Source: Lampris incognitus (Eukaryota > Chordata > Actinopteri > Lampriformes > Lampridae). From it: 64,000 nucleotides of DNA. The notes beneath the pieces were generated by a model. It was not told the origin of the DNA and ran no database searches. It worked only from the letters and a program-made list of their open reading frames with translations. The stretch's first letter is position 1. Each line of letters begins with the position of its first letter. This document shows positions 4,248 to 64,000 of the stretch, piece by piece. The stretch is taken from the NCBI RefSeq assembly GCF_029633865.1, contig NC_079217.1:40079834-40143833 (forward strand), in the 5' to 3' direction. A program made the position numbers and the translations under genes.

Positions 4248-5370
4248 GCATCAGAATCAGAATAATCTTTATTGGCCAAGTGTTCTTATGCATACAAGGA
4301 ATTTGACTCTGGTTGACAGTAGCTTTCTAGTACTTACATATATCACTCAAAAACAAAAAAGAAAGGCAACAAAAAAGAAAACCAAAAGAAATAAGGTGGA
4401 GGTGAGTATGTATGCACAACAAGGTATATGTCAAAACTATACAGAGTGTTGTTATGGCTGAATAACTTATAACCAGTTTACAGCAGCTGTATATATGTAT
4501 TCGCAATTGAACATTTATGTTGCACATGTGATTTAACAAGAGGTAGTGTGCATAGGAGATATATGTAAGTGAGAGATGACAGTCTGTCTCCCGGTACTGG
4601 GCTAGTGTACATTATATTCTACATCTGAGGTATCTAAGCGATAGATAGCGGGGTGGGGGGTACTGACAGTCTCTTTCCCTGGACTGGGACACAGCTGTAA
4701 TAATACTATGTAAGGGAGAGGGGCTTATTTACAGTGTTATGTTTACATAATAAGTGTCCATTATTGCACCGTGCCGTTAATTGTTCATCAGAGTGAAGGC
4801 CTATGGGAAAAAAACTGTTCCTCTGTCCGGTGGTTTTGGTGCACATTGCTCTGTAGCACTTGCCAGAGGGTAAGAGCTCAAATAGACTGTGTCCTGGGTG
4901 TGAGGGGTCTGTGCTGATTCTGACGGCCTGTTTCTGAGCTCCAGAGGTGTACATGTCCTGCAGGGTGGGCAAGGGAGCACCAATGATTTTTTTTCTGCTG
5001 TCCTTACTGTTTGCTGCAGTCTGTTCCTATCCTGTTTTGTTGCTGCTCCGAACCAGACCGTGATGGATGTGTCCAGGACAGATTCAATGACTGCAATGTA
5101 GAACTGGCTCAACAGCTCCTGTGGCAGACCAAATTTCCCCAATTGCCGCAGAAAGAACATCCTCTGCGGGGTCTTTTTGAGGATGGAGTTGATGTTGGTC
5201 TCCCACTTCAGGTCTTGGGAAATGGTAGTTCCCAGAAACTTGGAAGGTCTCCACGGTTGACACAGGGCTGTTGAATGCATACATGGCCATTTGTGTGTAT
5301 GCATGTGAATGACAACATGGGTGGCTAACGATTGTCAGTAATGGGGACACCATTTTGACCTTTTCATTTG
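4248..5370 (-). mobile_element. L2-group LINE, 3' fragment
   Basis: On the minus strand the frame at 4801-5304 encodes the C-terminal end of a Jockey-superfamily (L2-like) reverse transcriptase polyprotein, including FLGTTISQDLKWETNI, LPQELLSQFYIAVIESVL and a C-terminal LASATEQC block. The 3' UTR reaches about 4248 ('atcagaataatctttattgg'). It matches the 3' end of the longer copy at 26.3-31.4 kb. The copy is 5'-truncated within the RT C-terminus and is a dead copy. Confidence 0.75.
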
Positions 5371-14898: not shown

Positions 14899-15250
14899 AT
14901 GGGTGGCACGGTGGCCCAGTGGTTAGCACTGTTGCCTCACAGCAAGAAGGTCCTGGGTTCGAACCCCAGACCGTCCCAGAGCCTTTCTGTGTGGAGTTTG
15001 CATGTTCTCCCCATGTCTGCGTGGGTTTCCTCCAGGTGCTCCAGTTTCCTCCCACCATCAAAAAGACGTGCATGTTAGGGTTAATACTCCTGCCTGTACC
15101 CCTGACCAAAGCAATAGGAAAAAGAACTGGAGTTGGTTCCCAAGGTGCTGCAGCTGCCCACTGCTCCTGTGCAATAGGATGGGTTAAATGCAGAAAGAAA
15201 ATTTTATTGTAACCTACGATGACAAAATAAAGTGGCTTTCTTCTTTTTTT
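14899..15250 (+). mobile_element. V-SINE-type SINE, near full length
   Basis: tRNA-like head with A box GTGGCCCAGTGGTTAG (14911-) and B box GGTTCGAACCC (14956-14966). It is followed by the conserved V-SINE core 'gtgtggagtttgcatgttct ... tgggtttcctcc' and a tail ending 'aaagtggctttcttctt'. A 5'-truncated sister copy is at 42230-42510. Lies in the PDCD10 5'UTR intron. Confidence 0.85.
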
Positions 15251-21965: not shown

Positions 21966-50399
<28,434 letters not shown>

Positions 50400-55309: not shown

Positions 55310-58300
55310 GTGAGGCCTGTTTTTTTTTCTCATTTTTTCCTTGAATACAACTTTAAACACGTATAACAGCCATCTCATTCAAACGTGTATAACAGCCATT
55401 TACTCATGTAAAATCGAACAGTGATGGACCTTTGGCATACTTTAAAATAGCCATTTATGCGGGCGAACAATAGACACCAGCGCTGGTATCTATTGTTATT
55501 GACTGGTAACGGTCACTCCTACCCCCGTGGTAGGAGTGACCGTTAAAACGACCAAAATGGACACCGGTTTTTCTGTCAAGATAAATAGCAACGCAAATGA
55601 GATATTAATGCATTGCATATGTTAGTGTGTCTGTTAGGAAACGACTGACACCAAAATTAACATTTTAACAACTATAATATTTTTAAACAATTTAAACTTC
55701 AGAGACATGGTCGAACTAGAATAGCAAAATTGAGTGAAAATTCAAGTGAAAATATTGCCTTAAAAACAAAACGGAAACACATTGCCAATCTAACTTACGT
55801 AATAAGGCATATAAAACGTGAAATGTAAAAAAAAAAAAAACTGAAAATAACCATTGAAACGGTCCCAAACAACGACCGGAACTTAAAATCTACTAGAACG
55901 GCCATTTTCCTCCAATGCAATTTTTAACGACCGGGGTAGGAGCGACCGTTAACGGTAAAAATGGCCGTCGGTTTTTAAACTCTATATTCTGTCAAGATAA
56001 ATACCCATTTGAGATATTCATGTATTGCATATTGTAACGTGCATGGATAAATAGACACGTTGGCCCTCAACTAACGGGTCGGACCCTTTAGTCGACTGGT
56101 TCACGTTGTCGCTTGCGGAGTTGGAGGTACGGGTTCGCGTCCTGGCTGTGGCGGTTCTCGGGCTGCTCCCCCAATTTGCTACATTGGTGTCAGAAGCGGG
56201 ATGGTGAGATCGTAAGGCTATCGAAAGCGTATGCACCCGGAGGCGTGAAGTAGCAGATATGCTTAAGCGCAGGGACGCGCTTCCTGAAGGAGGAGGGGGG
56301 TAGTGTAACGTGCATGGATAAGTAGACATGCTGGCTAATGGGTCGGACCCTTTAGTCGAGCGGTTAGCGATGTCTCCCGCGGTGCTGGCGATATAGGTTC
56401 GCGCCGCGGCAGTTCCTGTGGTTGCCCCCTGAATTCGCTACAATATGTTAGTATGTCTGTTAAAAAACGACTGACACCAAAATTAAAATTTTAACACGCC
56501 TCTAGGCGCACGCGATTCTGATGGTCTCGGCCTCACCATCCCACTTCTGACACCAATGTAGCGAATTGGGGGGGCAGCCCGGGAACCGCCACACCCGGGA
56601 CGCGAATCGGGTCTCCCGCACCACAGGCGACTACGTTAAACCAGTCGACTAAAGTGTCCGACACATCAGCCAAGGGCTAGCGAGTCTATTTATCCATGCA
56701 CGTTACACTACCCCCTCCTTCGGGAAGCGCTTCAGCATATCAACTCCCTCACGCCTCTAGGCGCACGCGATTCCGATGGTCTCGTTCTCACCATCCCACT
56801 TCTGACACCAATGTAGCAAATGGGGGGGGGGGGGGCAGCCCGGGAACCGCCACACAAACTTGGGTCTCCCGCACCACAGGCGACTACGTTAACCAGTCGA
56901 CTAAAGTGTCCGACCCGTTAGCCAAGGGCTAGCGAATCTATTTATCCGTGCACGTTACACTACCCCCCTCCTTCGAGAAGCGCGTCCCCACGCTTCAGCA
57001 TATCGGCTCCCTCACGCCTCTAGGCTTACGCGCTTCCGATGGCCTCACCATCCCACTTCTGACACCAATTTAACGAATTCAGGAGTCAGCCGGGACACGA
57101 AAACGGGTCTCCTGCACCACGAGCGACTGCGCTAACCTGTCGACTAAACAGTCCGACCCACACTCGTGGGTGTTCTGGTGTCAGAAGAGGGATGGTGAGG
57201 CCATCGGAAGCGCGTGCGCCCAGAGGTATGAGGGAGCTGGTGTGCTTCTCGAAGGAGGAGGGGTGGTTAGTATAACGACCAAGGATAACTACACTCGCTA
57301 GCGCTTGGCAAATGGGTCGGACTCTTCAGTCGACTGGTTAACGTAGTCACCCATGGTGCAGGACATCCAGGTTCTTGTCCCAGCTGCCCATCGAATTCGC
57401 TACAATACTATTTTTCAAACAATTTAAAATCGCCTCTGTCCAACGCCTGTAAATACTGCAGTGCTTCGGTGGTAGTCATGGTGCGGCAGCTTTACCCAGA
57501 CATCCATCCATCCATTATCCAAGCCACTTATCTCAGTTGGGGTCGCAGGATGCTGCAGCCTATCCCAGCAGTCATTGGACGGCAGGCGGGGAGAAGCCCT
57601 GGACAGGCCGCCAGGCTATCACAGAGCCGACACATTCACACCTAGGGACAATTTAATATGGCCGAAATAATCAAAAATCAAGTTATTATTGCTCTGCACT
57701 GGAGAATGCTAGTGTGTTTCTAGAACAGAGCAATGAACTTCGGGAAGGAAATGACGTGACCAACATACGTTATAAGTAGTGACATGACGTGCACGATGAC
57801 GCGACAATTACGCGCGGTCATTTTGACCGCCCATGGTCATTTTATGTAGCTCTTATAATAACTTTTTTGTGCAATTGATCTAAAACCAATTTTAATGTAA
57901 ATATATGCAATTGTAGGAGTATTCAGGGAGCAGCAGGTCTATCTTTTTTCCCCCACAAAGTTATTAAACTTTGAAAATCCAAAACGGTCAAAATGACTGC
58001 CTTGGTCTTTCTAGTTTGAATGTTACCAGATCAGCATTATTGTGTTTGTATTTCTGTCTGCTGACACTGCCACTACCATACCCACAGATCCCATGAAACA
58101 TGCACAAGGAAGATGAGGGAAGTCTTAAGTATTTTTCTTAGTGTCTGTGAGACAGATTGTTTATTATTTGTGTCAACAGTGGATGATACCTACTTAACCA
58201 TGTTGTCTCATGATGCAGAGCACCTCGGGCACACCTCTCTCCCTGTCCAGAACTGATTTCTGTAACAAAGCCTTGGCCTCCATCGGATGTGGCTCCGAAG

Positions 58301-62546: not shown

Positions 62547-62723
62547 TGTGGCAGGAATGAGGAAAAACACATGAGACCAAGGCGAGTTTGATGTTTATTC
62601 CTCAACTCCAAAAACCAACTGCAGCAGGAACAACCCTGCCCCAGCGAGCCCGGGAACGTAAACCACGCCCCCAGCTCACAGTCCTGCTGGGTGAGAGGCA
62701 TAGCCCCTAGTGTCCGCCACACA
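62547..62723 (-). mobile_element. 3' LTR of a Ty3/gypsy element
   Basis: On the minus strand a C/G-rich polypurine tract (+ strand C run about 62724-62738) is followed by TGTGTGGCGGACACTAGG and ends ...CATTCCTGCCACA. About 177 bp. The target duplication cannot be checked because the other end is outside the window. Confidence 0.55.
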
Positions 62724-62768
62724 GGCCCCCCCCCCCCGAACACCCAGAAGGGACTCCTGGAAAGAAAA

Positions 62769-63998
62769 TTAGTGTCTCACTGGAGGCTTAAGCAGCCTGC
62801 CATAACGGCTGCGCCGTCCCTCAGCCGAAACAGTAGGTGAAACACAGTCCAAAGCCGGCTGAGAAGCAGAACGCTGAACCCGTGAAGACACTGCCGGGGT
62901 CCTGGAAGGAGGACGACCCCGACGGGGAACCTGGGCCGGAAACACAACTTCGCCTGCCACCCTGTGCGCCGGTTTAAGCCTATCAAGCGTGACACGCTCC
63001 CTACGCCCACCCATATCTAGCACAAAACCCTTAGGACCCGTCTCAAGAACCCGAAATGGGCCATCGTATGGGGGTTGGAGGGGTGAGCGGTGAGCATCAT
63101 GCCGTACAAAAACAAAACGAGCCGACATGAGCTCCGCAGGCACGAACGACCGTGGAAAACAGTGGTGAACGGGGCCTGGAACCCGAGTGCTGTCGGACAA
63201 AAAAGGATAAACGGCCGGACGGGGTCGAGGAGCGGAACTCCCAGGGCAAAAATTCCCCAGGGACGCGGAGTGGCTGACCGAGCACCAGCTCAGCGGGTGA
63301 CGCGTCGAGGTCCTCCTTAGGAGCCGAACGCAACCCGTGCATAACCCAAGGTAAACGATCCACCCAGTTACCACCCGAGAGCGCAGCGCTGCCTTGAGCG
63401 ACCGGTGAAAACGTTCACACAACCCGTTAGCCTGAGGGTGATACAAAGTAGTGCGGTGTACCTGCACACCCAAGGATCGCGCAAGTGCCGACCAGAGCTC
63501 TGACACGAACTGGGGGCCCCTGTCTGAGGTGATATCTGACGGAGTGCCGAAACGGGCGACCCAGGAGGAAAGAAAAGCGCGTGCAACATCCGAGGATGTT
63601 GTGGAGGATAGAGGGACAGCCTCTGGCCACCTGGTGGTCCGATCTACCATTGTGAGCAGGTGCGTAAAACCCTGTGAAGAAGGTAGAGGGCCCACCAGGT
63701 CCACATGCACGTGGTCGAAACGTCTGGCCGGGATCGGAAACGGTTCGAGGGGCGATTTAGTGTGCTGGTGGACCTTAGCGCGCTGGCACGCTACACATGC
63801 AGCTGCCCACCCCTTGACGTCCTTGCGGAGGCCAGGCCAGACGAACTTGGAACCGACCAACTTCACCGATGCCCGAACTCCAGGGTGCGAGAGGGAGTGA
63901 ATCGAATAGAAAACTCGACGGCGCCAGGCCACTGGAACAACGGGGCGGGGACGGCCGGTGGAGACATCGCAGAGGAGGGCAGGACTGCCTTCCTGCAT
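62769..63998 (-). pseudogene. Ty3/gypsy integrase, two frame changes, runs off window
   Basis: 409 codons open in the main frame. HHCC zinc finger near residues 33-75 (HSLSHPGVRASVK, ACVACQRAKV), catalytic D in HVDLVGPLP, D in ITSDRGPQF, E in LCERFHRSLKAAL, then the GPY/F-type module YDGPFRVLETGPKGF and LDRLKPAHRV near the C terminus. Between about 63370 and 63160 the family-like sequence (LPWVMHGLRSAPKEDLDASP, VPGEFLPW) is in a different frame (63097-63363). So two shifts that cancel out leave a stretch of unrelated residues in the long frame. The catalytic residues are intact, but the linker is scrambled unless these are sequencing errors. Confidence 0.85.
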
Positions 63999-64000
63999 CA

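Follow-up and report, generated by a model that had tools for sequence, protein, structure and literature searches.

Among the terminal-repeat retrotransposons in miniature (TRIMs), the closest described counterparts of the element analysed here are the Helenus elements of animals, in which the LTRs are tRNA-like and the insertions are flanked by 4-bp duplications (Kojima 2024, PMC10886601). Helenus or TRIMp3 elements are described as short (311-1263 bp), non-coding and equipped with two LTRs, and as primed in vertebrates by His, Leu or Lys tRNAs; the fishes listed are coelacanth (LTR1_LCh/LTR2_LCh), sturgeon, paddlefish, cypriniforms, one catfish and milkfish, and zebrafish LTR-11_DR is represented by 5,575 LTRs together with tandem arrays (PMC10886601). 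A Gypsy helper of animal Helenus is proposed in that account from the similarity of primer sites, and how the dependence of a TRIM on its autonomous partner is maintained is stated there to be not known (PMC10886601). A limited search of the open-licence literature since 2023 for Helenus in combination with LTR retrotransposons or TRIMs returned only Kojima 2024. Units with three LTRs and flanking duplications have been described by Sabot and Schulman (2007, PMC1950507) and explained by co-packaged RNAs; as presented there, the template-switch model predicts outer LTRs that are alike and accompanied by duplications.

The window, i.e., the whole stretch of 64,000 nucleotides that was analysed, contains at 56033-56442 a non-coding LTR-internal-LTR insertion of 410 bp. 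This insertion, its target site and the neighbouring copies are composed of the following features:

About 55571..55670, no strand: uninserted paralogue of the target repeat (empty site), 0.4 kb upstream of the unit
56029..56032, no strand: left target-site duplication ATAT, read directly and from the empty-site comparison
56033..56183, plus strand: 5' LTR of subfamily T1, 151 bp, starting with TGTAACG at 56033
56089..56099, plus strand: A-box-like TAGTCGACTGG of the 5' LTR, specified positions 93-98% conserved in 86 LTR copies
56132..56142, plus strand: B-box-like GGTTCGCGTCC of the 5' LTR, 32 bp past the A box, specified positions 86-99% conserved
56184..56303, plus strand: non-coding internal region, 120 bp
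56185..56202, plus strand: tRNA-Leu-type primer-binding site TGGTGTCAGAAGCGGGAT, one mismatch to TGGTGTCAGAAGTGGGAT
56286..56300, plus strand: polypurine tract GAAGGAGGAGGGGGG, just 5' of the 3' LTR
56304..56442, plus strand: 3' LTR of subfamily T2, 139 bp, with a final GCTACA to 56442
56353..56363, plus strand: A-box-like TAGTCGAGCGG of the 3' LTR, read from the sequence
56396..56406, plus strand: decayed B-box-like GGTTCGCGCCG of the 3' LTR, read from the sequence
56443..56446, no strand: right target-site duplication ATAT, read directly and from the empty-site comparison
56497..57164, minus strand: second array of the same element, consisting of partial internal region, LTR (56557-56707), internal region, LTR (to 56959), internal region and partial LTR
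57170..57409, plus strand: partial internal region and LTR in opposite orientation, closing the second array

The original prediction of a TRIM at this place is confirmed, with corrections. Its architecture is borne out by the ends, the primer site, the purine tract and copies elsewhere in the genome: the predicted TGTA/TACA ends are present at 56033 and 56442, the proposed purine run lies just 5' of the 3' LTR, and no stop-to-stop frame of at least 150 aa overlaps the internal region. The proposed Leu-type primer site holds as well, one base off TGGTGTCAGAAGTGGGAT, which we take to be a match to tRNA-Leu(CAA); the unmutated site also lies directly after the LTRs of other LTR elements of the same genome. 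A pair of LTRs had been claimed and is there, but its members are only 78% identical over 139 aligned bases and belong to two subfamilies. Similarly, boxes had been assigned to each LTR, whereas exact ones occur only in the 5' LTR and the 3' LTR has TAGTCGAGCGG and a decayed GGTTCGCGCCG; the gap between them is 32 bp instead of 33 bp.

Compared by description with published families, the element fits the Helenus class, so that the class itself is not new. At 410 bp, with LTRs of 151 and 139 bp and an internal region of 120 bp, the unit has the length of a Helenus element, and it resembles these elements in being a non-coding TRIM with boxes in the LTR, a primer-binding site, a polypurine tract, 4-bp duplications, a Leu-type primer, many LTRs and tandem arrays. 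The suggestion that a tRNA-like TRIM in a fish would be new does not stand, since Helenus was described in 2024 with fishes included (PMC10886601). What sets the present element apart from Helenus as described in that account are hybrids with Gypsy, units with mixed LTRs and a scarcity of T runs (PMC10886601). With the plant TRIM Cassandra it shares a pol III-type promoter inside the LTRs and tandem arrays; unlike Cassandra, whose LTR contains 5S rRNA sequence and is described with pol III terminators, the element analysed here appears tRNA-like and, in the 86 LTRs compared, lacks TTTT downstream of the B box (PMC7215508). No 5S rRNA was found in 56000-57500 or among 29 Rfam matches in 20 loci.

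Both flanks of the unit align to the uninserted paralogue (about 55571-55670), where their overlap consists of precisely the four bases ATAT, which bears out the predicted ATAT duplication and makes a single insertion event at this site well supported. The host sequence around the unit is itself repeated, and the second array (56497-57409), which is damaged, lies mostly on the minus strand and has an inverted end, begins 54 bases beyond the unit in the same host repeat. Elsewhere in the window, remnants of Tc1/mariner-type transposases (44793-45704, minus strand; 27066-27875, plus strand) and of a hAT element (39816-40433, minus strand) are present, together with reverse transcriptase pieces (34737-35318, minus strand; 37109-37750, plus strand) and ALKBH8_N-like matches (4801-5334 and 28282-28839, both minus strand, and within 37109-37750). 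A GC-rich stretch on the minus strand at 62600-64000 looks by eye like part of a Ty3/Gypsy polyprotein; Pfam gave no match for one plus-strand open frame within it.

The 410-bp unit was used to search its own assembly (1.48 Gb), and 40 of 5,632 first-look candidates were scored. These yielded 45 matches, the first 40 of them full-length or nearly so and 82-100% identical. The genome contains 1,861 exact copies of one 26-base junction between LTR end and primer site (reversed control, 0), in agreement with the Leu-type primer site of the window unit. A set of 60 loci (L001-L060) was composed of the 30 best matches to the unit and 30 primer-site matches. Within it, 32 units, solo LTRs included, have both outer ends, and 19 of them are flanked by exact 4-bp duplications (mean 6.0 and maximum 13 in 100,000 shuffles); the remaining 13 are not. 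All 19 duplications read NTAT or NTAC (ATAT 11, ATAC 2, TTAC 2, GTAT 2, TTAT 1, GTAC 1), and four of seven solo LTRs have exact ones. The complete units and solo LTRs with duplications expected from a genuine element were therefore found, and in the copies examined there was no sign that the unit is an internal piece of a larger repeat, that its ends fall elsewhere or that its boxes are unconserved. Among 27 measured LTR pairs, those of L011, L017 and L019 and one pair of L029 are 98-100% identical, so that some units are young. About 0.4 kb of extra internal sequence in L033 and L034 was considered as a piece of a longer parent and rejected, as these stretches look by eye like other, nested transposons. 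The primer-site matches of L037 and L043 run on into what we take to be more tRNA-Leu complement; L043 possibly represents an element whose primer site is longer, and L037 tRNA-Leu-derived sequence.

Conservation of the boxes was assessed in 86 LTR copies from L001-L060, the window's own copies in L001 included, with patterns that follow the usual A- and B-box rules. The A-box pattern is present in 71 of these LTRs, the B-box pattern in 58 and both in 49, with the 32-bp gap in 47, as the predicted conservation among copies demands. A strict A box followed by a B box at 20-64 bp occurs in 51 of the 86 copies versus 0 of 17,200 dinucleotide shuffles, and only once on both strands of the 64-kb window, namely in the unit. 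Mean conservation amounts to 0.95 at the specified A positions and 0.93 at the specified B positions, compared with 0.82 for the stretch that separates the boxes and 0.735 directly downstream of them, these figures coming from related copies and thus not being independent tests; the LTR termini are conserved equally to the boxes (0.94 and 0.946), as expected of integrase ends. TTTT is found in 3 of the 86 LTRs versus 29.4 expected from shuffles, a scarcity that is suggestive only, the copies being related. Its absence from 54 internal regions is uninformative (0.8 expected).

Likeness to whole tRNAs is weak. Rfam gave no match whatever in 56000-57500 at E up to 10, and in 20 loci no tRNA in the LTRs, with one sub-threshold tRNA match outside the unit (L014:1057-1128); ARAGORN found no tRNA in L001-L030. 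The tRNA-like stretch is therefore decayed and its isotype ambiguous. The sole ARAGORN call in the window is a tRNA without an assigned type at 14905-14978 on the plus strand. When the LTR plus strand was aligned to 27 tRNAs (19 entered by hand and 8 fetched), scores of 34-44 were obtained for 11 of 12 LTRs, whereas shuffles averaged about 24 and only 0 to 2 of 300 reached the score of the LTR concerned; Gly, Arg, Asp and Glu were the best-scoring types. The window's 3' LTR is not above shuffles in this alignment (92 of 300 reach its score), and when the only tRNAs used were 18 genes taken from the same genome, one of eight LTRs exceeded all 200 shuffles. Judged from sequence, the TRIM would be transcribed by pol III.

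Standard reverse transcription gives an element identical LTRs, and the differing LTRs of the window unit, T1-type at the 5' side and T2-type at the 3' side, consequently need an explanation. Nine units of the order T1-internal-T2 have both ends, and eight of these are flanked by exact duplications, which are found in only five of 11 same-type units. A directional element with T1 always first, suggested by the first 30 loci, in which the window-unit query favours the T1-T2 order, was rejected by the whole-genome counts: exact patterns identify 193 T1-T1, 48 T1-T2, 47 T2-T1 and 367 T2-T2 neighbours joined by an internal region. Mixed neighbours account for 95 of 655 (about one in seven), fewer than the roughly 304 expected from free pairing of types. 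Six of the 48 T1-T2 cases are near-identical places on C21 (40.5-44.4 Mb) with an unusual, shortened LTR arrangement, which may have arisen when part of a TRIM was amplified in a segmental or satellite-like manner; without them 89 of 649 neighbours are mixed, with 42 T1-T2 versus 47 T2-T1 and thus no bias of direction. Four three-LTR units reach the LTR ends, all from the query biased to T1-T2. In keeping with the template-switch model, their outer LTRs are of one type (4/4), with an inner LTR of the other type, and two of the four have duplications; one, L007, belongs to a longer array.

The primer site also joins the TRIM to an unrelated coding family, which distinguishes these junctions from the units of Sabot and Schulman (as described in PMC1950507). 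The primer-site pattern not preceded by T occurs at 827 places in the genome, and the first 30 sorted comprise 14 TRIMs, eight members of an LTR family of L066 type, two of the L049/L051 family and six others. The end of the L049-type Gypsy LTR followed by the primer site is present 46 times, the next base being T, as in Gypsy, in 29 cases and G, as in the TRIM, in 17. All nine G junctions viewed continue into TRIM internal sequence, and 16 of the 17 keep the diagnostic Gypsy-type base before the site (GCCACAC). With a Gypsy-type base before the site and a TRIM-type base after it, the switch lies inside the primer site; TRIM and Gypsy also have TTCGCYACA in common just 5' of the 18-bp site. 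L056 contains a 66-bp Gypsy LTR match, primer site included, and in L094-L101 the Gypsy LTR accounts for 76-215 bp of the fetched core and is 78-94% identical. Four hybrids have both outer ends, three of them with exact duplications:

L097: hybrid with duplication ATAC/ATAC
L099: hybrid with duplication ATAT/ATAT
L100: hybrid with duplication ATAA/ATAA, LTR end reading CACG
L098: hybrid with flanks ATAT/AAAT, no duplication

Of the others, L095 runs into another TRIM internal region or unit, the 5' end is not intact in L094, L096 and L101, and the 3' LTR of L094 is incomplete as well. The reciprocal junction occurs five times in the genome; each time a TRIM LTR of full length, which is T2 in four cases and T1 in one, is followed by Gypsy internal sequence of 89-96% identity. 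In L119 and L121 a TRIM internal region precedes, so that the LTR is common to TRIM and Gypsy. Fourteen TRIM/Gypsy junctions are verified and eight more are indicated by the next base, 22 in total. In their Gypsy parts the hybrids resemble one another at least as closely as they resemble the three Gypsy copies used for comparison, and some of them may share an ancestor; in their internal regions, all eight fetched hybrids are closer to a plain TRIM than to any other hybrid. On a single hybrid founder the internal and Gypsy parts thus point different ways, and the hybrids may not all be independent. Titles and abstract starts in a limited search of the open-licence literature gave no report of TRIM-Gypsy primer-site hybrids in fish.

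The partner (L049/L065) is a Ty3/Gypsy family with gag-capsid, RT, RNase H and integrase domains, located in separate open pieces in L065. It has the tract GGAGGGGGTAA 5' of the LTR, and the single copy of which both ends were viewed is flanked by an ATAA duplication, 4-bp TA-containing duplications thus being found in both TRIM and partner. The Gypsy copies L051/L062 and L049/L065 share about 155 bp of the LTR 3' part and not the preceding 210 bp (with the start of the L051 LTR placed by eye), a pattern that an exchange of the U3 region might have left. The L066 family was considered as helper and rejected: it has a 605-bp LTR, the same primer site as the TRIM, GGAGGGGGGCAG as a similar purine tract 5' of the LTR, NTAY in eight of eight 5' flanks examined and GTAT and ATAT duplications in two copies with both ends, yet none of its 212 exact LTR/primer-site junctions identified by the genome-wide pattern continues as TRIM (Fisher p about 1e-14), the 100 listed among them all continuing as L066. 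With its NTAY preference and closer purine tract, L066 could nevertheless mobilise the TRIM as a second helper that leaves no hybrids. The copy scanned gave a sub-threshold gag match and no RT, which leaves its LTR-element class unproven. At L066:4451-6913 (plus strand), an open frame of 821 aa combines this type of match with a WD40 repeat, which may have been captured from the host.

The hybrids are read here as products of recombination during reverse transcription of co-packaged RNAs, which would name the likely helper. In the proposed cycle, pol III would start inside the 5' LTR and, meeting no T run, continue across the internal region and to the end of the unit, 3' LTR included. This RNA would be packaged with that of the Ty3/Gypsy family having the same tRNA-Leu-type primer site, as the hybrids suggest, and be reverse-transcribed with the use of primer site and purine tract; the resulting DNA would be inserted at NTAY sites with a 4-bp duplication, a footprint seen in the genome and attributable to the Gypsy integrase. 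Since partner cDNAs have the primer site in common, plus-strand strong-stop DNA of one, which ends in this site, could prime on the minus strand of another molecule. Such intermolecular transfer would generate the observed Gypsy-LTR/TRIM hybrids, mixed-LTR units like that of the window and mixed arrays. A transfer product has different LTRs but two integrase-competent ends, and a duplication is hence expected. Plus strands extended over a complete TRIM likewise end in this site, and from them arrays could arise, among them the TRIM-Gypsy ones observed. That the window unit is a TRIM of the Helenus kind with pol III-type boxes, co-packaged with Gypsy and forming hybrids by transfer at the primer site, is considered probable. 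The wider proposition, that a pol III TRIM undergoes reverse transcription in the same particles as one Ty3/Gypsy family, with plus-strand transfer at the shared primer site being common, is favoured by a little.

The main rival would place the recombination after insertion: gene conversion or ectopic recombination would have produced both the mismatched LTRs and the Gypsy hybrids, leaving an otherwise ordinary Helenus whose helper the hybrids would not reveal. High copy number, many tandem or inverted copies and short homology in the form of the 18-bp primer site and the TTCGCYACA before it offer substrates for such events, random conversion would also make T1-T2 and T2-T1 equally frequent, and LTR-LTR recombination is proposed for many arrays in the accounts of PMC11899658 and PMC7215508. 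It accounts poorly, however, for the duplications, which crossing-over loses and which are exact in eight of nine mixed-LTR units and three of four two-ended hybrids, non-ATAT ones included. Neither the switch inside the primer site, with the Gypsy base retained in 16 of 17 G junctions, nor the 0 of 212 in the L066 family is readily reconciled with it, and this explanation is regarded as unlikely.

An alternative for the boxes alone, held to be about equally doubtful, is that they are a relic, in which case pol II would transcribe the element, as it does other LTR elements, and the tRNA-like part would be a functionless captured SINE piece. The lack of a tRNA fold recognisable to ARAGORN and Rfam, the decayed B box of the window's 3' LTR and the 37 of 86 LTRs in which one or both strict boxes are missing would fit a relic. 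Against this, the boxes keep their position in two subfamilies that differ at about a fifth of sites, the three most variable box positions are those left free in the patterns, and TTTT is scarce in the LTRs. The LTRs might also be mimicked by tandem copies of a tRNA-derived SINE or satellite. The tRNA-like stretch, the short unit and the frequent tandem copies might speak for this reading, but it is scarcely credible in view of TG...CA ends with 4-bp duplications, solo LTRs that have them too (4/7), the primer site and purine tract where expected and the Gypsy hybrids at the primer site. SINEs, which lack LTRs and insert in LINE fashion, were rejected as the class of the element, given its LTR ends, integrase-type 4-bp duplications and empty site.

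As its type of promoter is already known, the window unit alone is ordinary, and the hybrid junctions are the useful part. They bear on whether tandem LTR arrays originate in reverse transcription or in later recombination, a point left open in the account of PMC11899658. If co-packaging with primer-site transfer is true, it would explain mixed and tandem TRIM arrays, and the hybrids would constitute a genomic test by which a TRIM's helper is named directly. Present with one LTR family and not with the other of the two tested, primer-site hybrids may offer a direct way of naming helpers in any genome.
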